Positions 7,013 through 58,525 of a DNA stretch of 64,000 nt are shown piece after piece. Position 1 is the first letter of the stretch. Each line of letters starts with the position of its first letter. Origin of the DNA: Apostichopus japonicus. Lineage: Eukaryota > Echinodermata > Holothuroidea > Aspidochirotida > Stichopodidae. The notes beneath the pieces are model-generated. The model had not been told where the DNA came from. It saw only the letters and a program-made list of their open reading frames with translations, and ran no database searches. The position numbers and the translations under genes were made by a program. The stretch is taken from NCBI RefSeq assembly GCF_037975245.1, contig NC_092580.1, positions 18,772,501-18,836,500 of the forward strand, read 5' to 3'.

Positions 7013-7166
7013 TTAATGTTTTAATCTGCTGACTTGTGAGTGTAACGCTTCGTTTTCTGCGACGAGATCCTTCAATCTATCTTCTCTCTCTTCTTCAACT
7101 TCTCTATCAATCTCTAATTCTCGCTCCTGTCTCTGGATGGTCGTTTGTAACCGATGAATCTGCTCT
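7013..7166 (-). CDS. Exon 2 (last) of left coiled-coil gene
   Basis: The acceptor is a ttcag after a T-rich tract. The first base completes a codon split in phase 2. Fifty-one aligned residues follow (RELEIDREVEEEREDRL region), ending in TAA at 7013-7015. The exon aligns without gaps to exon 2 of the paralog at 12,366. The in-frame extension upstream to 7261 runs through intron sequence. Confidence 0.75.
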
Positions 7167-9268
7167 CTGAAATCAGAATTTTTAGAAAAGGCACATTTTG
7201 CTGTTTCATTTATTTTACGTTTTCGTTTCGTTTCAGTATTGCCAATTCCATCGCAATACAACAGTAACTGTTGATTTTGTTTTCACTTGAAGAAGTCAAC
7301 AACGACTCTGCTGTTACTAGTCTATTCAACAGGTTAAAGTTATGTTCGTCACGACATTCCCCCTACCCCCTACCCCCCCCCACCCCCTTCAACAGAGGAG
7401 ATTGTGTCCCCTTCACACTTTGAACTTATTAACCTATGTAGCTCATGAGTAGAAGGAACATCCTCCTATCAGGCAGAGTAGCGTCACTTGCCCTCATGTC
7501 ATAACTGCCATGTTCTTAAACTATCACAACTTGCAATGCATCATGGGTTATAATATAGTAGTGCGCCTTTATACCTTATCGCAACGAACAATATTTTTGG
7601 TATCAATCAATTAAACATCACACGGATTATTTCCAATCATCCCCTATTGGTCATTTAAGTCTAGTCCACACGTCCATCTTCAGCATGCTACTTAGGACAC
7701 TGAAGCAGAGAATCAGTTCACATTGCCTCAACCTCTCATCGTCTCCCGCCCTCCCCCCCCCCCCCTCCATCTCATCCACTTTAAATATTTGGAATCATGT
7801 GAGCAACAACACTTTAGAGCATGCCAACTTAATATGTTCAGCAAGTTAAACATCTACATGTTAATTCCCGACGGTCATTAAGCGGGTCGACCGAAAAAAG
7901 TTGGGTCGATTTATACGGCTTCCAGAACCAGCATACCCTCAATAGATCCTCTGTAACTACCCTCAACCCCCATCCTCCTAATCATTACCCCACACCTCCA
8001 TACCCCTCCAACTACAAGACATCTGCGTTTGTTAGGGAGGGGCGGTTAATTGAGCATGAAAGTTAGGCAAGTCATAATTTTTAAATTGATGCTATTTTTC
8101 AAATTGATGCATAGCGCCATCAATTTCTGCTTTATTTTGCGTGAGGATCAGTAGGACACGGATTATTAACCAGTGCTTAATATATCATACATCAGAGAAA
8201 AAGTTGTTACAGAAATATGTTTATAAATAGATTTACTAAAAATGTATTAAAAATGTTTTGGATATTTTATATCAGTCATTATCATTTCAACTTTTGGATG
8301 GTAATAACCATCACCCTGATGTCATTTACTCTGGTCAATATTGCAATTTTGGCTCATTTCATTTCATGTTCTTCACAATTTCAAACACAATATTACAATT
8401 TAAAACCGCCTGCGTGACTTACAGTTTGGTATATTCTTAGACAGTGGCTGGTGATGGCGTCACACTGAATATAGATATGTATACTACTTTGGTGAATTCA
8501 GTATTTACTTCACAATTAGAAAAATACCCCCTCCCAATCGACGATGTCACAAATTACAGACATGGAGAAAAATTCCTCTGCAGTTTCTTCAGTAAGGTTC
8601 CTATTGGTGCCTGATAGCCTAGCCTAACGAGAAAAAAGGGATAGCCTAGCCTAAAGAGTGAGAAGGCCTTACACCAATCTTCTATAGTGGCAGAAAGTCA
8701 TTGATACCTCTATAACAAGACTGTACATCCTAGAACTATACACTTACATATAACTTTCGTTTTCTTTCTGCAGGTCGTCAATCTCTCTTTCGTATCCATC
8801 CAGTGTCTCTTGCAAACTCTCAATTTTCTCATTTCTGTCGCTCAATTTTTCTTGAAGTGATTCTAGTTTCTTCTCTTCTAGATATGTCTCTTGTTTCTTT
8901 ATTGATTTTTCTAAAGCCTTCCCTTGATTTCTACCTCTTCTGGTTTCCTCATTTCTCCTGTTAACATCGTCTTCTGTGTCACTATCTGTCTCCTCGTTGA
9001 TCTTTGCCCTTTCCTCTTCTAATTCTCTTACCCTTCCTTCGGCCTTACTGAGGTCTTTCTTCAACCAATCAATGAGCGCCCTCATTTCTTCGTGTACTCG
9101 CTGTTTCTGAGCTAGTTCGATGTTCTGTCTTTTGATGAACTCTTCCAGAAGTCTACAGTGTTTGCTGGCTGGTGTCTGCACGCCATGATTTTCTCTTCTA
9201 CAGTTAGATGAGGTTGGTGCGTTATTTTTGTACATTCCGAGTGGAATATGTCTTATTATTCCGGCCAT
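7013..9268 (-). CDS. Acidic coiled-coil protein, left member of a head-to-head paralog pair (2 exons)
   Basis: The gene is join(8748..9268, 7013..7166) on the minus strand and encodes 224 aa. The ATG at 9268 follows a start-proximal motif shared with the paralog. Exon 1 ends in phase 2 (AT before gtaagt), and exon 2 begins after a ttcag acceptor. The protein has a basic N-terminus (1-37) and a first coil containing 'EEMRALIDWLKKD' at residues 60-72. A short Asp/Glu/Thr-rich linker lies at 92-105. A second long coil carries a leucine-rich heptad pattern to the stop. There is no signal peptide or membrane segment. The right-hand gene matches it along its whole length, with the same motif, the same acidic linker and the same intron position and phase. 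That conservation is the best evidence that it is real. Function is unknown; homo- or heterodimerisation with the paralog is inferred from the coil. Confidence 0.75.
7167..8747 (-). other. Intron of left coiled-coil gene
   Basis: The intron runs from gtaagt to ttcag on the minus strand, about 1.58 kb. It contains two C-rich runs on the plus strand (about 7360-7392 and 7750-7766), which are G-rich in the transcript and could form quadruplexes. Unlike the paralog's intron, it has no minisatellite. Confidence 0.7.
8748..9268 (-). CDS. Exon 1 of left coiled-coil gene
   Basis: An ATG-initiated exon of 173 codons plus two bases, ending at a strong gtaagt donor at 8742-8747. It carries the N-terminal basic segment, the DWLKKD coil motif and the acidic linker. 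Confidence 0.78.
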
Positions 9269-10317
9269 TAATCTCTGTTAGCTCACGATCGCTCGATGTA
9301 ACTACACTATCTGCGATATAGTATCATCGACACCAAACGTATTTGTATGCATGTTTTCTTTGAATTATTTACACTGAACGCGCCTCTAAATTTGACGCAT
9401 TTAGTCGAAGGCTATGGCCGCGCGTAAGTAATAAACGTTGCCTGCAGCACAGAACGTTGCGCAAAGAGAAATGTTACAGCGCACAAGGCGCTAATTACCC
9501 AGTGATATGTTGAAGCGCCGAAGATACTTAACTTTTTAAATTGGGATATTTCTGAATGATTTTCCATACATTCTTTCTTACATACCGTCCTAGGATATCT
9601 CGTTAGAAACATTAGTTCCCTGCCATTTAATCCAAATTAAATGTAAATCGTGTCTAGGCCTGTTATTCCTTATATGTATATGTACTAATCAACCGAAGAT
9701 ATGCACGTAAACGCGCAATTTGGCTTCATCATTGCGTTTTATACGAACGCGTATCAAGAAATCATATGGACCTATTCACGTTTGTGTGTGTAAGAGGTTT
9801 TGGAGCCATCAATCTGCAACATTTGGTTGCGCATCCCAAATGAGCTGCAATGAAATGCATGATTGCGTCTCGCGTGTAAGATGCACGACATTCTGAACAG
9901 CGTTCTTCAATACCTTAGTGACCAAGTAGATGCAAATCTCTTACATTCATTTAGTATCCCCGTGGTTGGTGTGTAGCATACAGAATGTCGCAGTATGGCG
10001 AGACTATAACTTAGAGGGGACTGGTTTTTTTTAGTCCTCTGAAGTACAAAACATACACAAGTAGCTGCTAGCCAGTCCGCTCTATATAGCGCACTAAATA
10101 CAAAGAATTTCCTTGAAATGCGCATTCGCTAAGTTAGTGACAGAAAGCTGACTGTGCAATGACGGAAACTGCGCACGGGACGCGCTTGTATATACTGCGT
10201 TGAACCTTGGGTGACCTATATGACGTCATAAAGGGACTGGGATGATATATCAACAATATATATATTATACAGTTAAATGCTGTCTTTATTCTCTTAACGA
10301 ACGATCGTCAAGTCAAC
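9269..10317. promoter_or_regulatory. Shared bidirectional promoter region of the coiled-coil pair
   Basis: This 1049-bp spacer separates two divergent ATGs. Close to each ATG is a matching motif, CGA(A/G)CGATCGT(C/G)A, oriented with its gene: 10,298-10,310 on plus and 9283-9295 on minus. The core CGATCG is palindromic. On the plus side there is also a TATA-rich run at about 10,255-10,270 and a perfect CRE at 10,221-10,228. Whether transcription is truly co-regulated is inference from the arrangement. Confidence 0.55.
10221..10228 (+). promoter_or_regulatory. Perfect CRE (TGACGTCA)
   Basis: This is the consensus palindromic site for CREB/ATF bZIP factors. It lies 90 bp upstream of the plus-strand ATG and about 30 bp upstream of a TATA-like run, a typical spacing for a functional CRE. 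The minisatellite in this gene's intron repeats the CGTCA half-site many times. Confidence 0.55.
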
Positions 10318-10781
10318 ATGTCTTACTATAAAAGGATTGTACGTCGCAGTTTATCGGCGAATAATAACTGTACCTCTCGTCAAAATGTGCCGAATCACCC
10401 TCGAGGTATCACCATTCATGAATGTGAGCATTGCAATCGTCTAGAAGAAAAGTTACATCACAATTCGAAGATGTTATCCGAAAAAGACGATATACTAGAG
10501 GAAATGAAAAATCTGCTGGATTGGTTGAAGCGAGATGTAAAGAAAGCTAATAAACGGATTGACAACTTGGAACGAGGAACGGAAACAGATGAAGGAGATG
10601 AATGTAATAGTCAAGGAGAACCAGAGGAACAAGAAAGTGACGATTGTATAGACGATAATATATTAGAAGAGACCATACAGGCACTAGAAGAGAGAGAACA
10701 ATGCATGACTGACCTAGAAACACGATTGGACACAAATGAACACGTGATTGAGAAGCTCCAGAGGCAAAATCAGAGTTTGTA
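10318..10781 (+). CDS. Exon 1 of right coiled-coil gene
   Basis: It has 154 codons plus two bases. The frame meets a TAG exactly across the donor (TA|gtaagt), so an unspliced reading would stop here. Homology with the left gene shows the frame continues in exon 2. Confidence 0.78.
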
Positions 10782-12558
10782 GTAAGTACATGTTTAGTTT
10801 AGCCTTTGGCTGAGATCATGTGTATTACACATGTTCAGATACACAGCATGTAAGGGACTCGTGTTATCTCACTTGATGTAGCACCGTCGTGATTATCTTT
10901 ATAAACTCGATGTAAGATCTGGGGTTGAGAGTGACACAAGTTGTTAGGTTTCCATGCCCAAGCTCCTCAGTTTGTCTCCCGCATTTCCTACAATAATACT
11001 GTGCTATGAAACAGTGTAATACGAACCGGTTGCGACAGTATAGGACAATATATAGTATATAACAGTGTACACACGAAGTTATCAACGGATTTAATCCAAA
11101 TCTTAAATTTTAAATATGTGTATTTCAAAAGTGCGTCTTTTCTAATTTATCCATCCGCCCCTCCCATCCCCAACATCCTTCCATGTTTCCCTGACTACCT
11201 ACTCCTTGTTCCATGAACCGATAAAAACCACGAAGATTTATAACGAAGTGACAAGCTAAAAGCCATGTATGGTATTGTATAGTTTTATTTTGATGTGGCT
11301 GTTAGGTAAAGGTAACAGCAAAGACATATGTGGGGAGTGAGGGGAAGAAGTTGGGTTTATAAACACTCATGATTCTTTGCGCATGACAAAGAAAACATAT
11401 GTATAATATATACCAATTGTGGCTGATATAGCATTCAAACAGGTTTTGCTACATGAGTCCGATAGACCATTTTTAGGCTACACATATAGGGAAGTCAGTC
11501 CACTTGGCAAGTTGGGCTATATAGTGTTAGTCGGGCTCATCATGAGAATCTCTTTGATATCCTACGTCATCATGAGAATCTGTTTGATATCCTACGTCAT
11601 CATGAGAATCTCTTTGATAACCTACGTCATCTTGAGAATCTCTTTGATATCCTACGTCATTATGAGAATCTCTTTGATAACCTACGTCATCATGAGAACC
11701 TCTTTGATAACCTACGACATCATGAGAACCTCTTTGATAACCTACGTCATCTTGAGAATCTCTTTGATATCCTACGTCATTATGAGAATCTCTTTGATAA
11801 CGTACGTCATCATGAGAATCTCTTTGATAACCTACGTCATCATGAGAATCTCTTTGATATCCTACGTCATCATGAGAATCTGTTTGATATCCTACGTCAT
11901 CATGAGAATCTCTTTATAACCTACGTCATCATGAGAAAGAATGTCTTCAATAACCTACGTCATCATGAGAATCTGTTTGATATCCTACGTCATCATGAGA
12001 ATCTCTTTGATAACGTACGTCATCATGAGAATCTCTTTGATATCCTACGTCATCATGAGATGTGTTTGATATCCTACGTCATCATATGAATCTGTTTGAT
12101 ATCCTACGTCATCATGAGAATCTCTTTGATATCCTACGTCATCATGAGAATCAGTTTGATAACCTACGTCATCACAAATGTACTTGAACCACCGATGCAT
12201 ATATGTTATACATGGGTCGTTTTGTTGTTTCTGGTAAATGAAATATGCGCATGCGTATTGATTATGTCTAGTAATATGTGAGATCAGTGTTAAAACAATT
12301 CCCCGATGATTACTCACCCTTTGTTCTTTATATTTCCCCTCTATTTGCCATTCTCTTCGATAAAGTGAGAAAGCCTGGGAACTTCAATTGATCGACAGAG
12401 AGAACCAGAAAGAATTGAAGATTAACAAAGAGATTGAAAAGGAAAGCGAAGACAAGGTTCAAAGACTCGCAATCGAGAACGAAAATCTAAAATATAGAGC
12501 AGTTCGCCTCGATAAACAGAATGCCGTCGTGCACGCAGAGGAAGGAGAACTGCAATAG
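10318..12558 (+). CDS. Acidic coiled-coil protein, right member of a head-to-head paralog pair (2 exons)
   Basis: The gene is join(10318..10781, 12366..12558) and encodes 218 aa. Exon 1 ends in phase 2 (TA before gtaagt). Exon 2 starts after ataaag, giving TAT at the junction. Residues 1-35 are basic and Ser/Asn-rich. 'ECEHCNRLEEK' near 35-45 matches 'KHCRLLEEF' of the left gene, and 'EEMKNLLDWLKRD' at 61-73 matches its core motif. A strongly acidic linker covers about 86-113, and a second coil runs to the end. Exon 2 aligns to the paralog's exon 2 without gaps, apart from a 13-residue C-terminal extension here. No membrane segment or known catalytic motif is present. I do not recognise the family; a structural or adaptor role through coiled-coil pairing is inference. 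Confidence 0.77.
10782..12365 (+). other. Intron of right coiled-coil gene
   Basis: About 1.58 kb, almost exactly the length of the paralog's intron, but roughly 40 percent of it is a 30-bp minisatellite (11,536-12,173). The flanking parts show nothing else. Confidence 0.7.
11536..12173 (+). repeat. 30-bp minisatellite A, about 21 copies
   Basis: The unit reads roughly gataacctacgtcatcatg followed by agaatctcttt. Two main variants differ at aacc/atcc and catcatg/catcttg. Twenty copies of TACGTCA were counted by eye. Because the unit is a multiple of three, long open frames with 10-residue periodicity run through it on both strands; they are artefacts. Confidence 0.97.
12366..12558 (+). CDS. 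Exon 2 (last) of right coiled-coil gene
   Basis: The acceptor is ataaag. The first T completes TAT, and 63 codons follow to TAG at 12,556-12,558. The sequence is Glu/Lys-rich, with leucines spaced as heptads (for example ENQKELKINKEIEKE). It is not visible as a standalone ATG frame; it was found by alignment to the left gene. Confidence 0.75.
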
Positions 12559-21500: not shown

Positions 21501-24500
21501 TAAGAGGGCTTTTTACTTGAATTCGTGGCATTCCTGCATGTATACACGAGTGCAGTAGAACTGAAAGCCTAGAAGTTCCTCACTAATAGGGTAAAAGCCA
21601 TTTGAAGTATTAACCCTATACATGGGTAACGAATACCTTATACTGTAACAGTCTCAGTTGTCAATGTATCGCAGATTATCAGTAACAATACACCAGAAAG
21701 TGGTTTCATTTTAGACTGCAGGTAAAGCTAAATTATTGGTTGTGCTCGTTTCATAATGTGAAGGTATGAGAATCTTTTCTTCTGTGGTTTCAGGTGGACA
21801 GTGGAATTATGCATGTGCACTTTGCCACCAAATTGGGAAATTTGGGGTAAGTACCAAACGGACGAACACTGAAGGAATCACACAATTACCAAGTAAAATG
21901 CCGCTTCTAGTCAATGACAATTCCATTCAAAGAAAAACAAAGTAAGGTATCAACTTTTTCTTATAACTTTTATCTTTAGAAATGTTATTTCCCATAGGTC
22001 GGAAAACTTGTTATTTGAAAGTACCCACGGAGGGAGTGTATTGTTTTTATGAATATTCCTTAAATAAGACAAAATATATATTTTGGATTGAAACAAAGTC
22101 GGCAACATTTGCAAAAGATAAGACAAATTTTGGCTGCTTTTACTTTCAATTGGACACGGTTTTACCATGGCGATATGGCTATATAAACATGGCTATTAAC
22201 CGACTTGAGTAAGTCTAGAGGATACTTCCAAGGTCGTTTGGTGATATTATACAATGTAGGTGAAAGACCTTAGCAAAGCTAAGACCCAATTCATGACTAA
22301 TTGACGAGGCTTTAAAGCAAATTACTCTAACAGATGATATCGATTGGTTCTAAGTACACTGGCTATGATTTGAAAAATGGGTGGAGACGCCGTCGCCGCG
22401 TTCATTGAAAATGTATAAAAGATACATACACTGCTAATACAGGGACATGTATGTGTATATGCGTAATAACATGACAACATGACGTATCTATCACGCACGC
22501 AGTACATAACAACGGATCGATTATATGAGCTAAAAAATGATGTGTATGGAAAGCACAATAATCTTAAAATCAACTTAATAAATCATAGTACGTTTTGGAA
22601 AGTCTGCAGGAGGATAGACATGCCTCTATTGACAGTTGTGTAAAATCGACAGACAGAAGGCCATAAGTTGATATTGTGGTGCCGCGGTAGCAACGAAATG
22701 TATGCTGTCTTAACAGGAGTGTCCAAGTGTTTTATCTACTTTTGATTTGGTGAAAAGGGAATACTTTAAAAGCATCCTGGTGATATTTGCATTCAATGAT
22801 TATCTACCGATATTGGTCAGCTAAATTTGTCACTAGTTTATATTAAACGTGAATACTCAGGACAGCTTGAAGCAAACAGTTGTAATGTCATAGGCGCACA
22901 ATGACAAATATGTTTCGGTTAATTTATTTTTCACTCATTTGTTTTGAGCTTGGATTGATAAGAGTTTCAGCTTACATTAAAGGCTGTCTATCTGCATAAG
23001 TTTACAATGTACTATCGAATTCGTTTGAATAAGTTTAAAGAGAGAACAGAAATCACTCACAGTATTGTTGTGTTTCCATGGCATCACACCTGTTTGCTTC
23101 AAGTTCACTTTTGACAGACAACCTATCGGACTCAAGTGTTGTCATCTCTGAAAAACTTTAAATATTAAATTTCATTTGAATGTTTATAATATTCTATATT
23201 TTCATCAATCACAAACCAGTTTCATCCTGGACTATAGGGGAAGGAGCGGGGGTGGGGGGAGACATGAATATGAGTGGAATGATATGGGTCGTCTAGCCTC
23301 ATCTTCACCTGATGGCAGTCACTACTATCATTCGCTGTAAATTAATTTAAGCAATACCAATAGTACATCTTTCCCTTCGACAGGTCCACACGTCCCTTTG
23401 CCAACGTGATTAATGGCGTAAAGACTACCATTATCTGAGGAAAACGTGCATGGAGAGAAGGAAATGGAGTGACAGAAATGAAGATTATATCATGAAGAAG
23501 AGGAACTTGTTATTACGACTGTAGGGTGTTGCGTAGGCGTTGTGCACAGTGTTTCCGTACACTACAATTGTGCATCTCACCCACGCAAAGCACTGCAGTT
23601 TTAATCATCATGAAGACCGCCCTCTAAGGAATATCAGCGAAAGCGTTTCTTCGAAGCGAAGCCTGGCATGTCCCTTTGAGGGCTGGCGTTGTGACGGCAG
23701 TACCCCTGGTCTATGTGTTTGCTTGGACACACGTTACTCTATTCTGTCTTGCCTCGTCGAACCGATCGGTACGGCCATCAGGGAAGGAATGCGAGAAGAG
23801 ACAACGCGATGCCGTATATTGAAAGATACAAATCATCCATTTCTGCAAGTTTAATATCAAACCCTTTGGTTATTATCTGTTTAATTCATAGGAATGCACT
23901 TGGTTAATTCACACAAGAAAGGTCTGTCACCCTTACACACAAATTAAGAAAGCAAATATTAGTCAATTATGAACCATACTTCAAAGAAAAACAAAAATGT
24001 ACAGAAAACATTTGCTGATATCAACTTTATTGATTCTAAATTCAATGATAATTAGATAACACATTGGTACAAAATGGTGTTGTGTGGAGAAAAGAGAGAG
24101 GGGGGGGGGGGAGAGAGGTGGGGGAGCATGAATATGAGGTGAGCACAGGATATATGATATTGCTAAAACAAAGAACTAATTAAAAAATTGAATTATTTGA
24201 TATGGGATGCTACTTCAACCTGCTCCTTAGACTGATCCTATGACATCCATATATTGCTTAAGTGTTGTTTCATTGACTCAATGCTCATTAAGGTTGGGCA
24301 TGTATGAAATTAATATATTTGTTTCTTTGGCTGACGCACAAGGTTCAAGTGGAGGTAATCTAGGGTTACCATATTTATTTGGTTGGTTAGTGGGACAGTG
24401 CACTCTGGAGGAGGGATGTGATTAATGTTTGGATTTTAAAGAGGGCAACATTCCACATGGTGGCATATTGACAGCTTCATACACCTATTACAGTAGTACA

Positions 24501-29349: not shown

Positions 29350-30310
29350 GTTACATCCAAGGCTCTAGCTAGCAGATACTTAAACTGAATGCCGTAGCTA
29401 GGTAGATAGCTACACTTTATGCCCTAGCTACTGTAGGCAGATAGCCACATTGACAGCCCTGGGTAGGCACATATATGCACCAAGGCCCTAGCTAGGCAGA
29501 TAGCTACATTCATTGCCCTAGCTAGGCATATAGTTACATGAAAGGCCCTAGCTAGGCAGATAGCTACATGGAAGGCCCTAGCTAGACAGATAGTTACATT
29601 GAAGGCCCTACTCAGGCATATAGCAACATGGAAGCCCTAGCTAGACAGATAGCTACATTTATTGCCCTAGCTAGGCAGATAGCTACACGGTAGGCACTAG
29701 CTAGACAATTAGCTACATTGAAGGCCCTAGCTAGGCAGATAGCTACATGGAAGGCCCTAGCTAGACAGATAGTTACATGGAAGGCCCTAAAGGTAGACAA
29801 ATAGCTAAATTGAAGGCCCTTGCTAGACAGATAGCTACATTCATTGCCCTAGCTAGGCAGATAGCTACATGGAAGGCCCTAGCTAGACATATAGTTACAT
29901 GGAAGGCCCTACAGCTAGCCAATAGCTACATTGAAGGCCCTTGCTAGACAGATAGCTACATTCATTGCCCTAGCTAGGCAGATAGCTACATGGAAGGCCC
30001 TAGCTAGACATATAGTTACATGGAAGGCCCTACAGCTAGCCAATAGCTACATTGAAGGTCCTACTTAGACAAATAATTACATGGCAGGCCCTACAGCTAG
30101 ACAAATAGCTACATTGAAGGTCCTAGCTAGACAGATAGCTACATGGAAGGTCCTTGATAGTCAGATAGCCACATTGAAGGCCCTAGGTAGGCACATAGCT
30201 GCACCAAGGCCCTAGCTAGGCATATAGTTACATTGAATGTCCTTGTTAAGCAGATAGCTACATTGAAAGCCATAGGTCGGTAAAGAGTTAAACTTTAGGT
30301 CCTAGCAAAG
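29350..30310 (+). repeat. 30-bp minisatellite B, about 32 copies
   Basis: The unit is roughly gaaggccctagctaggcaga followed by tagctacatg. Variants differ in tagacag/taggcag and in cattcattg versus catggaagg. Inside is a higher-order duplication: 29,821-29,940 recurs at 29,942-30,060 (121-bp shift) almost without change, including rarer variants such as 'acagctagccaatagc'. Short minus-strand frames with a 10-residue repeat arise from the 30-bp period. Confidence 0.97.
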
Positions 30311-35902: not shown

Positions 35903-38900
35903 CTGTAGTGGGAAGGGGGAACATAAGGAGAATCGATCATAACAGAACTTTGCAGATCTACATATTGCATTAGGTTATAAGTTTGTTATAATCTGACCTA
36001 GGCCTTGTAAACTTAGTATGTAAATCGATCTCCTCAATCAAACAAAAATATCCATTTACCTGCTCCTGTTTAATGGGTTATTCAATTCATTTTTAATTCA
36101 AAGCATTCAAACACAGTATTTACAAAACGTTACTTTTTTATAAGGAGTCATTATTTCAAATTGGATTTTCATTTCAAAAGTTTCTTCCTCATATGGCATT
36201 AACAAAACAATTTGAGGAAGATATTAATTCAATCCAATTCATTTCAATTTAAAATTGATTTTTTTCTTCTTTTCCGAATGGCATTTAAAAATACTGTACA
36301 TCATGTAAATGACAGGAGTAACAGAGACATGCTTGACACTAGGGAAACAATCCTGCTTAGATCATAATAAATTACATCTATATAGCGCTTAATACAGCGT
36401 TTCAAAGCGCTTTGACAAGGTTAGTGGCAGACTTTCAGTGAGTCCGTCCGTACTAATATTTGTGTTCTGGCATATTGGCCAGTACTCACAAGGATCTGTG
36501 CACCTAAAATAAAACCCTAAATGATACTTTATTGAAGAATTTTGGGGCTTTCATATCAAGTACTGTCAATGTTGTACACACAAGTAAGCCAAAACTTAAA
36601 AAATCCTGAATGCTGCTTTAATTTCCATCACATTTTTCACCTAACCCAAACATCAAGATAACACTTGAAGGTATCTTAGGTGTGTTTATATAGATATATA
36701 GGCTGAATCCCAGTGTAGGCCTGATGGTATGTTGTACATGATTTCATGTGATAGGGTAAGCTATCTCTTATTTTCTTCATTCTGACACCTGAAGACATCC
36801 TTCTTCTACATGTATGCATAGATTCAGACAGAGCAAGACTCTGCTTGATTAGAAGAGACTACATCTCCCTCAAAGTCCAAAGAAAGATAGCTCTCCTCTT
36901 TCACGGAAATCTGAGGACTGCTTCCGACTGTTGAGTATCCAGTCAAGTTTTAGGGGAAAAGAGACTATTGTTTTTATTTAATGACCATTGATGTAATATT
37001 TTGCCCAACAATTACTTGAGGGAGAAACAGAATCCCTTAGAGAATAAGCACACAGCTGTTACTTTGCAATAAACTCACCAGTTTACCTATTACCTATTAC
37101 TTTTTTACATTTGTCAGGGAACATTTGATGCTTATAAATCTTGTTTGCTGTTTGTTGTGTTTTTTCTGTACTTTATACAAGAGAGACCCATAACACTTAC
37201 AGACCCCTCCAAGCATTTCTTGCTGTTTTAGTTGAGCTCTTTTTCGTTCCTTGCAAAACCACCCCTCCACCCCCCCTCCCAAGCTTCCCTTTTCTACCTT
37301 AACAAAATCAATAACACAAAGCAGATTGCTAAATGCCCATTAGCCTAATTGCAACTGTCATACAAAGACAGAGAATGACCAAAAATTGCATTTTAATTAG
37401 GTCATGACATAGAAACTCAAATTTGGCTGCTAAACTGAATGAATAGCAAAGAGAGATATAAAACAATAATTCTTAACTACTGATATCCTTGATGGTAAAC
37501 AATGTGTACGGGACAAACAGTCACCATGGAAAGACCTATACAAGACAAGACTAAGTCAAGAGCAACCGAGGAGAGAACATGTTAGTCTGATTTTAATGTT
37601 TATCTCTGTAATTTTACATTACACCTTTAAAGGTTAGGCTTAGAACATATTACAACCTCCACTTGTCTTAATATGAATGATGCTAAAGTACGTCCTCAGA
37701 CAGGCCTCAAAGTTTAAAGGGGCACTACATGTTTACACAGGGATAACAAAATAATTGCAAACTCGTCCACAAATTGAAAACGAACGATATTAATGGATCA
37801 CTTCGGGCTTCGTAATCCGATCCCAAAGGTATTTTATTCGGTGGCGATATAATCAAGGGAAGACTAGAGCTGACAATTTGATGTGAATAAAAATGACAGC
37901 TAAGGGGAACTCAAAGTTTTATCAGCTGGTCATGTTTCAAAGAACTACATTATGCATTTTATTGCCGTTTGACATCAATATCAAATAGAAATAGTCTTCG
38001 TTAAATCTTGACTTTACATTCTTCAAAGTTTCCACTAATCTATTGCACTAAATGCTATCAACTGGTAATGGGCCTTTTGTATCCATTTTTTTTGCTTATT
38101 ATTAACCTGCATGTTTTAGGAGACAAACCTAGTAGACAACATGCAGAAACAAATGTAATTAATTTAATAGATAAACAAAAAACCTATGACAAAGAGAAGG
38201 AACAAAGCTTAAATGACCACATGTAGGAGGCCATCTAGTTAATATATATAATATGCAAAGCTATGAATGCAGGTGGTATTTAGAAAATTATTCACATCCT
38301 AAATCAGTTCAAATGTCATACCTGTTTTTACCCAACTGATAAAGGAATTGGGTAATATGGTATGGAGTAAGATGGTATGGAGTATGGTATGGAGTTAGGT
38401 AATATGGTATGGAGTAAGGCTATGCATGGTATCTTGTTAATTTATCAATCTTCATCAATTTATCAATCTGCACATTCTTTCAATCAATCCAAAATATTAT
38501 ACCACAAACCCTTCAGAATGAAAGGACACGCTGCGTCATCTTCAAAAACAACTAATTCGATCATCGTTACCTGAAGCATAGATAGATATGCCTCCTTAAA
38601 CTGCTCCTTGGTCAAAGTAGGGACGGGCGAGACCCTCGATGATTCCTTTGAAGTCATGGCCATGGGTACCAGGAGGCCGGATGAAGCGGGTCTCTGAATC
38701 AAAGATGGAGTCAGCAGCTGGGAGGGTGTGAAAGATGCAGGAATCGTCTGAGGAGATGTGGGCTATCGAGAGACAATGAGAGAAACAATGTCAAACATCT
38801 CAAATGACCATTGCTTTAAACCAAAACAACATGTTAAATGTATAACTACATCATTTTATCTGGGAAAGTTTAAGTTGGCAATTTCTGACATTTTTGCCAA

Positions 38901-41900: not shown

Positions 41901-44900
41901 AAAACATGGGATAGAAATGGCAATTGTAAAACTATTAAATGTCAAATTATTGACACATGTTAGATGAACATTTATTCCCATGCTATTTCTGTGAGTCATT
42001 TATAAACGTAACTCATTCTCAATACTTTGTTTCACATGGGCCTTTTTACACACTCCCTTTAAAAGATAAAACTATCTGGTTAGGTACAGGATACAATGTC
42101 CTAATAAATTTCTGTCTTACAATTTTGCAATGGAAAATGGGAATTAAGAAACAAAACCGTATTATGCAATCAAAATGTTGAGTTTTACCACAATGGCAAG
42201 GGATGGGAAGGGATATGGCAGTCGAGGGGGGGGGGAGAAGGGGTTCAAGGGGTTCATTTACAGTACGATCTGTCGATCTTCAAAATGTTCAAGTGGATTT
42301 GTTTTCAAAAAGATTCTTTGACTACAGCTCTGCTTCTCCTCGTTTAATTTGGAAATAAATTAATAAATTTATTCCTTTTATCCTGTGTAAGTGAACTAGA
42401 CTTCCCAATCCTCCCAGGCTATGACTAGTTTGTTAATTTTATCCTGCAATTAGGATAAACCCCTCTGTGTGCCACTCAACTTCCCATTATCTTATACATA
42501 TTAAATAATAATGAATAATAATATTCATAATATACCTTTATCAGGTTAAAAAAAAAATGAAAATGATTGCCCATCTTGAGCAAATAACTTTTTTTTTCCA
42601 CATTTCCTGGAAAGAGAAATTGCTTTTCAAATGAATTTTTATGACTGCCCTTGGATTTGAAACCGACAAGAAAGAAAATGTGCGAATCTTATGAAATTAT
42701 TTCGGTTCATTTACATACTTGGAGAATCTTACAAAGAGTATGCATTTTGATGAAAGAGGAGGACTGAGGCAATCCAACCCACTTCTACTTTCATGTATTA
42801 AACTTGAACAAAAACTCTTTTTTTTTTACCTTTGTGAGGCTATAATTTTTTTAATAATTATTATTATCTTGATGCAATTTCAAATAAATCGTGTGTCTTT
42901 TCTTGACCAGAGAAATTGCCTTAAAATGTAATTTGTATATATAGCTGCCCTTGGATTTGGACTACCAGAAAAATGCAGGAATCTTGTAGAACCTGTTATA
43001 TTCAGTCACATACTACAAGTATCTTTGAAAATATATATTCACTTTAAGTGCCAGAGAATTTTTTTAAATCTGCTTCACTTTCTCTTGTATGTTACTTTTA
43101 TTAAAAATAAAAGAAGCAGCTATTTAAAGTCAATTTTGGTAAAAAAAATTGTTTTGATGTTTCTCAATCTTATATTAAAATAGTAGATCATGTATATCTC
43201 GAGTAATCAACTTTCATTTAAGAAAATGAAAATAATGAAGACAAAGAGAAAAGAAGTCAAAATTTTTGCTATTGATCAAACCTGAAATTATCTGTCATTC
43301 ACTCATATAAACCTTCTCTTGTCCAAAAACATGGATGACATTGTCTGAGTTTCGTCAACTACATGTAATCTTAGTGTGAGTTTGAGGTACATCTAATGGG
43401 AGTAGATATTTAACTTGCTGACCAAATGCAAAACCTGCTTTAACTGTTATGCATTAAAATTAATCCTCAAAAAGTAAATATAACATCCAGGCATTTACTG
43501 GAAGAGGAACCTTACAGTCTGCATAAATCTTGGGTGTTTCATGGCAATTATTGGATATATCATCTTTCTGGTATGATTTAAGATGACTTTATAAAGTTTA
43601 AATAGGAATAGTGAATGAGATTTTGAGGAGATGTTTATTTGATGTTGTGAATGTAATAAATGACATTTAATATGAGGTGTTATGACATCTACTGGTGTAT
43701 TAATTATTAATTAATTCCTCCCTTCTCTGCATCTATCAGCAGGAGTGATGCGATAATTAACTGGAGTGAGACTTGTGGTAATTATAAGAACGATATCATT
43801 CGTTGCTTAGAATCGGTCTCTTATTTGCTGTGCATCGTTATCCTAGGACATACCTATTTTGTCCCCTAAATTTCAACCACGAACAAATTCAAACAAACTC
43901 TCGCTGACAAATGAGGAGCATTGCGACCAATTTAGCAAACACAGGCAACATAGTTTTGGATAAAAAATATTTCTCACCACCACTGCTCCTTCAGTGGGAC
44001 TTGCTTGTCCTAGCATGGTCAGGCTTGTTCCAGCATCACCACCCGCACCAAAGTCAGGAGAGATAGCCATGGAGTTGGAGCTAGCTGTACCCCTAGACAG
44101 CCCCGGTAGGCTGACGGCCTGTTGAGACATGGTCTTCACGGGTTTCATCACTAATGGGTTGAGTCCCTTTGATGCTATACGGTGAGGTGCCTCATGGGAT
44201 ATCAACTGAGGTTCTACGGTATGACCGGTGGTACCTGCTGCCACATTACTGAAACCGGTGGGTTTCTGTAAAGCTTCGGGAGTTACAGGTGATCTCTTGG
44301 TTTGTTCCTCGTTGTAAGAGAGCATTTGAAGAAGACTGTCGATTGGCTTCTTGCCAGATTCACTGCCGGATGGATCAGTCCGAGACGAATCTCCTCCTTC
44401 GATATCAGCCACGTGCAACCTCTCCAGACTCTCAACCGTCTTCATCATGTCACCGGAAGTACTCGCCACTTGTACCTGTGAAGCATCTGACTGTGAAAAT
44501 AACCTCTGCAATAGTGGTAGCACCTCCCCAGATTTGACATCATCTTCTTTGCTCCGTTCTTGCACCGATACTGAGCGCTTGAATTTCGGAGGACCGGTCC
44601 TAGGTTGGGTAATTTCATGTTGCTGACCCTTGACCTGAACTACGGTTAAACTTCCATCCCCTGAGGCATTCTGTCCGTCAACTTTCACCGGTATCGGTCG
44701 GATGACTTGAGGTTCACTCTGAGGAATGGGCTTACCAACATCCTTTGTTGAAACAGTTTTTGTCTGTTAGAGAGTAAACAGAAACATCAAAATTAGAAAA
44801 TAGATATCTTAAATTAGAAAATAGATATCTCATAAATATCTGTATAACATACTTTTTGAGTGCATGCTGCTAATAACAAAAACCAGTGTTGTGATGAGTC

Positions 44901-47900
44901 ATGACTGGAATCCTCCATTTTTGGAAATTGAAAAGTTTGAAAGCATTTGTGACATATGTCTCCATAAAGATTATACACTGATTCAACGCCATCTTTCCCC
45001 ATAGAGATTATACACTGACTCAACTCCATCTTTCCCTGGCATAGAGATTATACACTGACTCAACTCCATCTTTCCCTATAGAGATTATACACTGACTCAA
45101 CACCATCTTTCCCCATAGAGATTATACACTGCTTCAACGCCATCTTTCCCCATAGAGATTATACACTGACTCAACGCCATCTTTCCCCATAGAGATTATA
45201 CACTGACTCAACGCCATCTTTCCCCATAGAGATTATACACTGACTATACGCCATCTTTCCCCATAGAGATTATACACTGACTATACGCCATCTTTCCCCA
45301 TAGAGATTATACACTGACTCAACACCATCTTAGAGATGATACAATGACTCAACACCATCTTTCCCTATAGAGATTATACACTGATTCAACGCCATCTTTC
45401 CCTATAGAGATTATACACTGATTCAACATCATCTTTCCCCATAGAGATTATACACTGATTCAACGCCATCTTTCCCCATAGAGATTATACACTGATTCAA
45501 CGCCATCTTCCCCGATAGAGATTATACACTGACTCAACGCCATCTATCACCATAGAGATTATACACTGATTCAACACCATCTAAGAGATGATACACTGAT
45601 TCAACGCCATCTTTCCCCATAGAAATTATACACTGATTCAACGCCACCTTTCCTCATAGAGATTATACACTGACTCAACACCATCTTTCCCCATAGAGAT
45701 TATACACTGATTCAACGCCATCTTCCCCCATAGAGATTATACACTGAGTCAAGTCCATATTTCCCCATAGAGATTATACACTGACTCAGCACCATCTTAG
45801 AGATGATACAATGACTCAACTCCATCTTTCCCCATAGAGATTATACACTGACTCAACACCATCTTTCCCCATAGAGATTATACACTGATTCAACGCCATC
45901 TTTCCCCATAGAGATTATACACTGAGTCAAGTCCATATTTCCCCATAGATATTATACACTGACTCAGCACCATCTTAGAGATGATACAATGACTCAACTC
46001 CATCTTTCCCCATAGAGATTATACACTGACTCAACGCCATCTTTCCCTGGCATAGAGGTTACACACTGACTCAACCCCATCTTTCCCCAACGCCATCGAT
46101 AAAGACCTGACTTGACCTAACCATGAAGACACTTAAATTACAGTTCTGCTGATACTGTAACCAATGTGTACAGGTGGCACATTTATCAGTCCTCATATAT
46201 ATTCCATCTTAGAATAGAATACCAGTGTCTTAAAATTATTTGCCAAATCATATTTTGAATAATGTTCGGCACAGTTTAAAGCCGGGGTAATCTGCTTTTG
46301 AATTCACTGTTACTGCAATAAAGCCATTGTTACAATAAAACCCCTTTTTAAATCATCGATTCACAAATGTCTTGAAAATTCAGCTATTCCTGCTTAATCC
46401 TGGCAAAACTTAGACAAGGGACAAAGTGCCCCATTTCTTCTTCTTCTTCTCCTACATCACTATTCACGCAAAAATGAACTCCAATGACCCTCGCAGCTAC
46501 TATGTCTGCTAAGCATCTCTTAATTTAACCATTTAATCGTCTCATCCGTCTGTCAAACATACTCAGAAGTTAAATGTATATTAACGGTATTTTTTTCTTT
46601 CTTTCTTTTTTCCACAATCCGTCGTCGTCGAGGCCTACCATCAAGCAAAGCACCTGGAGGAAGGCAGCCTGCCTTCGCTGCTGTGATATGTTCATTCAGC
46701 GTGCTGTGCATCCACCGACGATTTAGTCCCTAGCAACCGTTTTACAAGCCTCAGTCTGGCATAAAACTCTCCTCCTTTGAGGAAACCAATCAATGTTTTC
46801 AGAATTTTTAACGTATCTCTCGACACAGTGGGCTGGATTGACTTCAATAAAAGGCAAAATAATCGCCAGGGTATACTGGCTGGGCTTTGCATGTTTTTCT
46901 GTTCTATTTGAGTTGTCCATCAAAACAGACTACCATTAAAAAGGTTCTTAGAAACTACCTTTTTACTTCTTCCTAAAAGGGTTTCCTGTTTCCAGTAGGT
47001 CTTCAAACAGAGAAATAAACGTGATTAAAATCATCAATACCCTCTTCATTGTAGTACACTGAGTTGTCAATATATATATATATATATATATATTTTCTGC
47101 ACGGCAAATTTTTTTTTTTTTTTTTATGCTCATAATTTGGGCTGGTAAGTTTGAATCAGATGTAAGGCTGCACGGTTTGGGCTGAAGTAAAAACCAGTCA
47201 TACTTTTAATGTTAAAAACGGATTTTAACTGAAAAACCGGTTTTTACAACGTACATATAATGTGTGCAAGCTAATTGTCTACGAGGCAAAATTTTCTTCC
47301 AACCCCCAAAGCGTCACATTTTTGGGAATAACATTAAGTTTTATTTCTAGCAGTATGTTTTATAGTTTAGAGGAATTTGCTAATAATACTAGAGCAAAAA
47401 CACTTCTTTGTTTGCCAAATGTGTTAAAAGAAGTTTTACACTGAACTTGGCGCTTTGGCGAGCGGCTCATTATGCACCAGTTCAAATAGCACACATAACC
47501 CCAACACCAGCATTCTCTATATAGTAATGCCTAGCCGAATGTTAAAAAGCTGGTAAAAAACTGCAGAAACAAATTTCATCTTGAGCAAGTACAAATTGTG
47601 ACACAAAGTGTTCCAAACAATCTCAGTGGGAGTTTACTGTGTGATAAAGTTCACTAGATGCAGTATATAGGAAGTTTTATCCAGTGCGGCATGCGTAACT
47701 CACTGAGACACGTTCTGACTTTGTAGACCACAGACAGATAGTTTCTAATACACCATAACTCTTTATCCTTTCTGTTACAAAATTGTTTGAACATGATTTT
47801 TTTAAATTATGACATACTTATTCAGGTGTCAAATCTGACAATCATTTGGTCGTATCCACTTTCAATAAAGTTCGTTCATAGACATTTCAGCCAGGGCTGT

Positions 47901-51199: not shown

Positions 51200-52080
51200 T
51201 GCTCACCATCAAATCATAATACACTTTAGCATATATCTGTTGCTCACCACAATACACACAAAGTGCAAATAATCCAAATTTGTTGCTCTATATCAAATCA
51301 TAATACACATAAGGTTCTCACCATCAGCATAATACAAATAAGCCTATGTGTTGTTCACCATCAAACCATAATACACATAAGCCTATGTGGTGCTCACACA
51401 TCAAACCATAATACACATAAGCCTATATGGTGCTCACACATCAAACCATAATACACATAAGCCTATGTGAGATGCTCACCATTAAACTATAATACACATA
51501 AGCCTATATGGTGCTCACACATCAAACCATAATACACATAAGCCTATATGGTGCTCACACATCAAACCATAATACACATAAGCCTATATGGTGCTCACAC
51601 ATCAAACCATAATACACATAAGCCTATATGGTGCTCACACATCAAACCATAATACACATAAGCCTATATCGTGCTCACACATCAAACCATAATACACATA
51701 AGCCTATATCGTGCTCACACATCAAACCGTAATACACATAAGCCTATATGGTGCTCACACATCAAACCATAATACACATAAGTAGTACTCACTACCAAAC
51801 CATAAAATACACAGAATCCTAAGTGTTGCTCACCCTCAAACCACAACACATATTTAGCCTACCTAGTGATCACTATTAAACCTAATATACATAACTTTAT
51901 ATTGTTTACAATAAAACTACTCTCCATGAAAATTAAGTCTAGTTCTTGCTCAACAAACCACAATATAAATTAGCCCATCTGTTGCTCACTATCAAATCGT
52001 AATACAAATAAACTGCTATATGTTGCTCAAGAACATACATAAAGCTTACCTATTGCTTACCATCAAACCACAAACATAAA
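51200..52080 (+). repeat. 40-bp minisatellite D (core 51,358-51,782)
   Basis: The core has about eleven copies of catcaaaccataatacacat followed by aagcctatatggtgctcaca. Copies on both sides are increasingly diverged and can be followed to roughly 51,200 and 52,080, which suggests an old array with a recently homogenised centre. It lies less than 1 kb upstream of the first visible DCP1 exon, probably within an intron. Confidence 0.93.
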
Positions 52081-55000: not shown

Positions 55001-56370
55001 AGCTCTAATTTTAACTAAGTGATGCAAAAACAAGTACAAATAGGGCCACAAAACAGAACAAAACCATTCCATTTATTATTCATTGAAAACAAAACCATTA
55101 CTTTTATTTTTCATTAAAAACCAAATCGGTACCAGAGCACTGTCCACTATATCAGATCTCTCAAATCACTTCGTTAATTTTGTTTAATTTTTATCGATTA
55201 TCCACACTTCCCGAGATGTGCAGAAAGTGTCTGCCAAACGTCGCTGTATCGTACCTGACGTATCTAACGGAAGAGCCGGTTTTGTTACTATAATATTTGT
55301 GGTAACTTGATCGGTCAGACTGTGTCATTTGCCATGTCGGAGCATCGCAACTGCATTAATGTGTTAAGAGAGAGCTCTATGAATAAAGCACACAGCAGGG
55401 TGTTTATAATCCAGCCTTGTCAAATGCCTGTTGGTTATTCCATCCACAATAGCTGTCATTTGCATGAGGATCACTCTGAATGAAAAGGTCTCAGAAAACT
55501 TTCCCGGCATCTAATGACAAACATGAAACACTTAACTGGTATACACTTGCTTTTCAAATTCCATTTTCTTTGATGGATTTTTTCCCTTTTTTCTCTCTAT
55601 TTCTCGCTCAGGAGAGCAGATAATGTCGTCCTAAAATTTGCTTGAGAAGACAATCCCAACCGTGTTTGCATCGAAGAAGAACTGAGGGGTTTGGAAATCT
55701 ACGGAATGAATTAAAAAACTTTTTTGTTTCGGTAAACATGAGAGAACGAGAAGCGAATGCAATTACTGAGGGAGCGATTAGGATCAAAAAGAAATTTATC
55801 TTATCACCTCACGCGATGAAGGCGGGGGAAGCCAGAGAGTGGGATGTACGTGAATGTAATTCAGACGTACGACTCTATGTTAATGACACATGTAGAGTAA
55901 GGAACTACAGATATACGGACGCACTGACAGCTGTGCAAGACAAAAACGCAGATTTACTGCTGATCGTATGTTCAAATGTTTCATGTTAAGTTGGGGAGAG
56001 TTTGGACAATTACTCGCACTAGACAAATTTAACTGGGTATGAAGATATGCCTCAAAATAACATTTTCTTCAAATAGTTAGTTGTCTCCCATTTTATTGAA
56101 AGAAAGGAATTTTCAAGCATGTTTAAAATGGCAAGGTGACAGGACTGAAGGAAACAATCAGCAACCTGGACAAGAAGCAATGACTATATATCTCTTTCGA
56201 GATCCGGCTTTAGGAATCACAAATTTCGAGTTGGTTAGCATCATGTTTGATCTCTAGAGTAAGGGAAATATGTCACCAAAACAGAACTAGTATTGTTCGA
56301 TACAGGTGACAAACGCCTACAGTGGAATTACGACCTTCCTTACCCGTTTCGAACATCTGGACATACAATC
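52081..56370. other. Non-coding or unassigned stretch
   Basis: I searched the minus strand for the missing DCP1 exons (motifs such as DPYI, WEKTD, EGTLFVY, DLEFQL, FLLYRN) and did not find them. T- and A-runs and a G run (about 54,290-54,302) are present. A plus-strand frame at 55,642-55,989 (115 codons) has no recognisable domain and is not called. Confidence 0.5.
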
Positions 56371-56442
56371 AGCGTCCATAGCCTAGTGGTTAGGGTGTCC
56401 TCGTACAGAGCGGGAGGCACGGGTTCGATTCCCGTGGAGGCT
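56371..56442 (+). repeat. tRNA-like Pol III element (tRNA pseudogene or SINE head)
   Basis: It has a perfect box A (TAGCCTAGTGG, 56,379-56,389) and box B (GGTTCGATTCC, 56,422-56,432). It folds as a cloverleaf with a 7-bp acceptor stem (one mismatch), a D stem (one mismatch), an anticodon stem (one mismatch) and a perfect T stem. The 7-nt anticodon loop GTACAGA would give the unusual anticodon ACA. A T6 run at 56,448-56,453 would terminate Pol III, and a TA run follows at about 56,490. The mismatches and odd anticodon favour a SINE or pseudogene over a working tRNA. Confidence 0.6.
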
Positions 56443-56447
56443 GGAAA

Positions 56448-58114: not shown

Positions 58115-58525
58115 GGGTACCAGTGGACTGAGTATACCTGCAATGTCCCCCTGTAAGAATTGGAGTACTAGTGAACTGAGGTTACAATGACCAGCTATAC
58201 AAATTGGAGTAACAGTGAACTGAGGATACCTGCAATGTTCCCCCCCCCCCCCCGAAAGAATTGGAATAACAGTGAACTGAGGATACCTGCAATGTCCCCC
58301 CCCCCCGAAAGAATTGGAGTAACAGTGAACTGAGGGTACCTGCAATGTCCCCCCCCCCCAAAAGAATTGGAGTAACAGTGAACTGAGGATACCTGCAATG
58401 TCCCCCCCCCCCCCGAAAGAATTGGAGTAACAGTGAACTGAGGATACCTGCAATGTCCCCCCCCCCCCCCGAAAGACTTGGGAGTACCAGTGAACTGAGG
58501 GTACCTGCAATGTCCTTCTGTAAGA
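58115..58525 (+). repeat. About 60-bp minisatellite E with long C runs, about 7 copies
   Basis: The unit is gaaagaattggagtaacagt then gaactgaggatacctgcaat, followed by gt and a C run. The C run differs in length in each copy (about 3 to 15 C). The minus strand therefore carries regularly spaced runs of ten or more G. Gly-rich open frames on minus are artefacts. Confidence 0.95.

Follow-up and report, generated by a model that had tools for sequence, protein, structure and literature searches.

How did two small, acidic coiled-coil genes of the same build come to lie head to head in a sea cucumber genome, and what might their products do? The question is raised by a 64,000-nucleotide stretch of the Apostichopus japonicus genome (NC_092580.1, positions 18,772,501 to 18,836,500 of assembly GCF_037975245.1; hereafter the window), in which gene A, on the minus strand, and gene B, on the plus strand, are read away from each other between positions 7013 and 12558 of the window. 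Our answer is that A and B, judged by their sequences, are paralogues left when a coiled-coil gene with two exons underwent tandem duplication in inverted orientation long ago. A fuller reading, to which we give a probability of about 0.5, adds that both copies have stayed coding, that they probably share a promoter region and that their products would be dimeric scaffold or adaptor coiled coils in which a tryptophan motif provides the contact.

Each gene is predicted to have two exons. Exon 1 of gene A (8748..9268, minus strand), recognised by its open frame, its GTAAGT donor and its homology to B, holds codons 1-173 plus 2 bases and encodes, in order, a low-confidence N-terminus, a first coiled coil with EEMRALIDWLKKD, an acidic linker and the start of a second coiled coil, whose C-terminal part lies in exon 2 with the stop codon (7013..7166) and keeps the same register across the junction. 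The predicted intron between them (7167..8747) is 1581 bp long, lies in phase 2 and runs from GTAAGT to TTCTGATTTCAG. Exon 1 of gene B (10318..10781, plus strand), supported by its open frame and its homology to A, holds codons 1-154 plus 2 bases and encodes an N-terminus, a first coiled coil with EEMKNLLDWLKRD, an acidic linker and again the start of a second coiled coil; exon 2 with the stop (12366..12558) supplies the C-terminal part of that coiled coil and a tail longer than that of A. The predicted B intron (10782..12365; 1584 bp, phase 2) runs from GTAAGT to CGATAAAG, with TTCTCTTCGATAAAG at the acceptor end. The predicted products of 224 (A) and 218 (B) residues are both acidic, and AATAAA signals follow less than 1 kb past the stop codon in both genes. 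Among the frame-keeping GT/AG pairs in the scanned stretches (133 for A and 160 for B, of which 29 and 6 have a GTRAG donor), these junctions give the longest protein that any GTRAG donor allows, in both genes. The coordinates, frames and phase-2 introns of a preliminary description of this DNA, and its distance of 1049 bp from start codon to start codon, could all be reproduced, with the splicing predicted rather than observed.

The common origin of the two genes is carried by their proteins and by the place of their introns. Over 188 aligned positions 63 residues are identical, and the local BLOSUM62 score of 260 (A taken as residues 1-222, the alignment ending at A 222) lies far above the highest scores in three kinds of shuffle of 1000 each, namely 109 for plain, 131 for 20-residue block and 121 for heptad-preserving shuffles. 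The first helices have the motif EEM-x2-L-[IL]-DWLK-[KR]-D in common, and a gapless block of 99 residues (A124-222, B105-203) contains the two introns, which split the aligned codons of A I174 and B Y155, both in phase 2. When A was used as a tblastn query without composition correction against the surrounding 264 kb, exon 1 of B was found with an E-value of 2.5e-16 and exon 2 with 3.8e-5; in searches of the whole genome, A found exon 1 of B (E 9.0e-6) and B found exon 1 of A (E 3.0e-5). Adjacent genes on opposite strands with similar proteins and a common intron position and phase, here at predicted junctions, are what a tandem inverted duplicate consists of, so that the duplication with preserved gene structure claimed at the outset is borne out by the protein similarity and by the intron codon and phase. 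The acidic linker does stand at the same place in both proteins, as had been described, but its length differs: the alignment gaps, of 7, 10 and 3 residues, all fall in the linker or just beyond it.

The near-equal length of the introns, which had also been pointed out, is correct as a measurement and was rejected as a sign of common descent. The two gene regions show nothing beyond chance similarity at the nucleotide level (best blastn E 0.34), and about 40% of the B intron consists of a 30-bp tandem array of some 21 copies (11537-12174); since the introns have no detectable similarity and one of them is so largely repeat, the match in length is most likely a coincidence. A length of 1.58 kb is in any case unremarkable, because the average intron of A. 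japonicus is put at 1.29 kb in the text and at 1.84 kb in Table 7, for the final gene set, of one published account (PMC10344927). The array also accounts for 20 of the 28 plus-strand occurrences of TACGTCA in the 264-kb region. This heptamer resembles a half-site of basic leucine zipper (bZIP) proteins.

The duplication is evidently not recent. Among residues identical in A and B, differences occur at all 4 fourfold sites and at 16 of the 36 twofold sites, the expectation at saturation being 47-49% for the latter; differences at codon positions 1, 2 and 3 number 99, 74 and 126 of 188, and the NG86 method returns a nonsynonymous divergence (dN) of 0.69 with an undefined synonymous one (dS). 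In a neutral simulation, in which 300 B sequences per divergence level received random uniform substitutions, none remained free of stops at 0.25, 0.5, 0.75 or 1.0 substitutions per site. Because synonymous sites look saturated and yet both homologous frames are open, selection has probably held A and B protein-coding over most of their history, which gives indirect support to the earlier suggestion of selection on both copies.

The proteins themselves appear to be built on one plan. An AlphaFold2 (AF2) model of A exon 1, made from a two-sequence input, has helices at residues 36-96 and 106-172 with a mean predicted local distance difference test score (pLDDT) of 78.1, residues 1-31 falling under 50. 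Hydrophobic residues recur with periods of 3.46-3.56 across the four segments formed by helices 1 and 2 of A and B, and the observed periodicity is reached by 8 of 500 shuffles for helix 1 of A and by none for helix 2 of A and helix 1 of B. In helix 2 of both proteins the best-fitting heptad register does not change across the junction (6/6 for A, 4/4 for B), the register of A agrees, through the alignment, with that assigned independently to B, and a sliding-window register runs continuously through both junctions. On balance, this agreement across the junctions and between the proteins speaks for the splice model as well as for common descent. Each protein would have an N-terminus that is probably disordered, then a helix bearing the DWLK motif, an acidic, flexible linker and a long second helix, whose gene segment is predicted to be cut by the intron in both genes.

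Two explanations would undo the account given so far. If unrelated coiled-coil genes had converged without any duplication, low complexity and heptads would inflate the scores, and it fits such an origin that identity amounts to merely about one third and that the exon 2 match is weak genome-wide; the shuffles that keep the heptads nevertheless stop at less than half of the real score, and convergence has no ready place for a DWLK motif common to both proteins or for an identical intron codon and phase, so that we regard it as extremely improbable. Alternatively, one copy may be decaying or have been silenced recently, leaving the sole function to the other. The less typical acceptor of B would suit this, but the frames of A and B are open in spite of saturated synonymous divergence and both junctions are in frame and in heptad register, and we hold a silenced copy to be highly unlikely. 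An old inverted duplication with both copies coding is the reading that we retain.

To which family the pair belongs is a separate matter. Among Pfam matches with E up to 1, 18 families were listed for A and 5 for B, with none above its curated cut-off: the best match of A is Gp58 (E 0.00022; 20.2 bits, cut-off 34.5), CREPT covers the DWLK motif best (A residues 30-94, E 0.0011) and HAUS3 follows with E 0.0048, and none of these three is listed for B. In NCBIfam, the matches of A are to SMC-type models and other generic coiled coils and stay far under the cut-offs (cut-offs were compared for A; B is present in the summary table). The models listed for both proteins, SlyX in Pfam and SMC_prok_B and TrlF_fam_ATP in NCBIfam, are bacterial or archaeal and are matched along the heptads. 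Sequence matches in the PDB were two for A (E up to 0.1) and none for B (E up to 1), and a two-sequence A/B profile gave nine at E up to 1, none of them convincing. The preliminary description had not recognised the family, and for Pfam, NCBIfam and the PDB, where matches are below cut-off or generic, this holds.

Relatives are equally scarce nearer home. A search of the 671.6-Mb genome with A gave three matches at E up to 1e-3, namely its own two exons and exon 1 of B, and a search with B gave four at E up to 10, both exons of each gene; these were single-protein searches in which all first-look candidates were scored (52/52 and 14/14), and distant members may be missed. A larger local cluster was sought in the 264 kb with tblastn and with a two-protein profile, and only the four A and B exons came up above threshold. 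No relative was confirmed in IMG/VR (111 pattern stretches) or GTDB (217 stretches), where two short peptide patterns per scan give a limited reach. At E up to 0.01, PHROGs returned nothing for B and four weak matches for A, and the idea that the pair is viral or prokaryotic was set aside. No paper on the family was found, although a printed mention elsewhere is still possible.

The 1049 bp between the start codons (9269..10317, assigned to neither strand) form a candidate bidirectional promoter. The observed/expected CpG ratio of this gap is 1.28 at 40% G+C, while the median for 500-bp windows across the 264 kb is 0.60 and the 95th percentile 1.15. Just 8 of the 2630 windows of 1049 bp in the same region match or exceed the gap, and these are confined to a handful of spots in the left flank. 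Divergent genes around a short, CpG-rich intergenic stretch are the mark of a bidirectional pair, the 1049 bp here being the distance between start codons and not between transcription start sites. We infer from the CpG content that the gap is unmethylated in the germ line and promoter-like, and A and B are probably transcribed outward from this common region. In A. japonicus, methylation at CCGG sites falls chiefly in gene regions, according to a published report (PMC8027599). A cAMP-response site, TGACGTCA, at 10221, 97 bp upstream of the B start codon, was considered as a regulatory element and dropped: it carries no weight because it occurs 14 times in the 264 kb, the third highest count among 24 palindromes compared.

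What the proteins do can be approached through the way in which they might pair and through the company that they keep in profile searches. It is quite possible, though in our estimate the less probable case, that A and B evolve fast but belong to an animal coiled-coil family already described (centrosomal, ciliary or adaptor, for example), whose profile is absent from Pfam or too generic. Coiled-coil families are often missed by profile searches, and A does have weak matches to Gp58, CREPT, HAUS3 and the PAWR coiled coil; all four, however, are under curated cut-offs and none is listed for B, and the families that the two lists do have in common are the bacterial or archaeal ones matched along heptads. 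Such membership would be compatible with the explanation that we prefer and would bear on the family name only. An obligate heterodimer, with the head-to-head layout keeping the two amounts matched, seems to us unlikely. The heptad register is common, helix 2 aligns without gaps, the genes share a CpG-rich gap, and a crude count of attracting and repelling g-e' charge pairs in helix 2 is better from A to B (4/1) than for A with A (1/1). With both directions counted (B to A 2/2, B with B 4/1), however, two A-B dimers net the same as one A-A plus one B-B dimer, and taken as a whole the count tips neither way on a heterodimer. Some heterodimer zippers pair acid with base; A and B, unlike these, are both acidic. 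Moreover, an inverted duplication by itself yields the head-to-head order, and co-regulation is unneeded.

The preferred course of events, to which we now return, would be the following. The ancestor would have been a gene of two exons encoding a small, acidic coiled-coil protein, presumably duplicated long ago in inverted orientation. Its copies would have been retained as coding while they diverged to about one third identity, and their transcription probably runs outward from a CpG-rich region that serves both as promoter. Most likely either protein forms coiled-coil dimers, homodimers and possibly mixed ones, which may act as an intracellular structural or adaptor scaffold with the tryptophan motif as a conserved contact. 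We infer the shared transcription, the dimer state and the scaffold role rather than observe them, the last being likely on the grounds of fold and composition. The interpretation offered by the preliminary description is thereby supported in part: the inverted duplication stands, as do selection on both copies, by indirect evidence, and the unrecognised family, for the libraries searched, while the heterodimer that it suggested is neither favoured nor disfavoured by the charge count. A bolder version, in which a paralogue pair restricted to sea cucumbers or echinoderms shares a single CpG-rich, bidirectional promoter for joint expression and has been retained since the old duplication because its chains assemble through the DWLK helix, we consider distinctly unlikely.

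Several results weigh against the account as a whole. With B as the query, exon 2 of A was recovered genome-wide at an E-value of 0.39 only. Further GTRAG donors lie within A exon 1, which makes shorter A products possible, and in the B acceptor (CGATAAAG) the pyrimidine tract beside the AG is poor. The AF2 model of A exon 1, built as it is from two sequences, has a predicted template-modelling score (pTM) of 0.32, and Foldseek gave one match, a vimentin chain at E 7.3, and thus nothing usable. The periodicity of B helix 2 is weak by itself (51 of 500 shuffles reach the observed value), and its sliding-window register loses regularity around residues 165-180, shortly past the junction, before it returns to the same register. 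Finally, the proposed cellular role draws on general properties of coiled coils.

The remainder of the window and its flank hold several features of their own. A tRNA-like gene at 56370-56444 is called tRNA-Cys with anticodon aca by ARAGORN and tRNA by Rfam (34.1 bits, gathering score 29). An ACA anticodon would read the cysteine codon TGT, the usual anticodon of animal tRNA-Cys being GCA, and the gene may be a variant or decayed copy. Open stretches at 38484-38762 and 43873-44766 on the minus strand may resemble the C-terminal region of a decapping protein of the DCP1 kind; they have no Pfam match at E up to 1, and a search of the 264 kb for DCP1 motifs gave nothing assignable to DCP1. A mir-242_2 microRNA precursor lies at 23518-23599 on the plus strand (81 bits, gathering score 56), and the name occurs in an A. 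japonicus microRNA paper (PMC4669494). Long tandem arrays occupy 29352-30275 (units of 30, 60 and 119 bp), 44962-46089 (37 bp), 51328-51782 (40 bp) and 58202-58515 (53 bp). Some 72-100 kb to the left of the window start lie one open frame for a rhodopsin-type receptor (7tm_1, E 4e-31) and another for a reverse transcriptase (RVT_1, E 1.6e-10), together with three near-identical frame pairs about 20-21 kb apart, which suggest a local duplication there, and at about 64-65 kb an open frame matches a C-type lectin domain (Lectin_C, E 9.9e-6).

Seen against known systems, the A/B pair is a sound finding of an ordinary kind: a coiled-coil gene of no assigned family that was duplicated, in inverted orientation, long ago. 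Duplicates in inverted orientation are common, and so are bidirectional promoters and coiled-coil genes without an assigned family. If the reading is true, the locus offers a compact case of adjacent paralogues that have stayed linked past synonymous saturation with their gene structure intact, and the DWLK motif is a handle for finding relatives; beyond this the finding changes little. The nearest structural likenesses are generic dimeric coiled coils, namely PAWR (5fiy, E 0.024) and CSM1 (3n4x, E 0.027), whose helices are long and, like those of A and B, repeat their hydrophobic residues every 3.5 positions; these non-significant matches leave out the DWLK motif, since they span A 103-176 and profile positions 153-196. 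With tandem inverted duplicates in general, A and B have in common the adjacency, the opposite strands and the intron position and phase, but they are rather diverged for an adjacent pair, with synonymous sites that look saturated. The SERPINI1-PDCD10 (neuroserpin-PDCD10) pair, as described in PMC2556349, is likewise a head-to-head pair of a deuterostome, separated by about 0.9 kb where A and B have 1.05 kb from start codon to start codon. That pair has an asymmetric bidirectional promoter. A reference cited by the paper calls its genes non-homologous and describes a bidirectional promoter, whereas A and B are paralogues that diverge from a candidate promoter.

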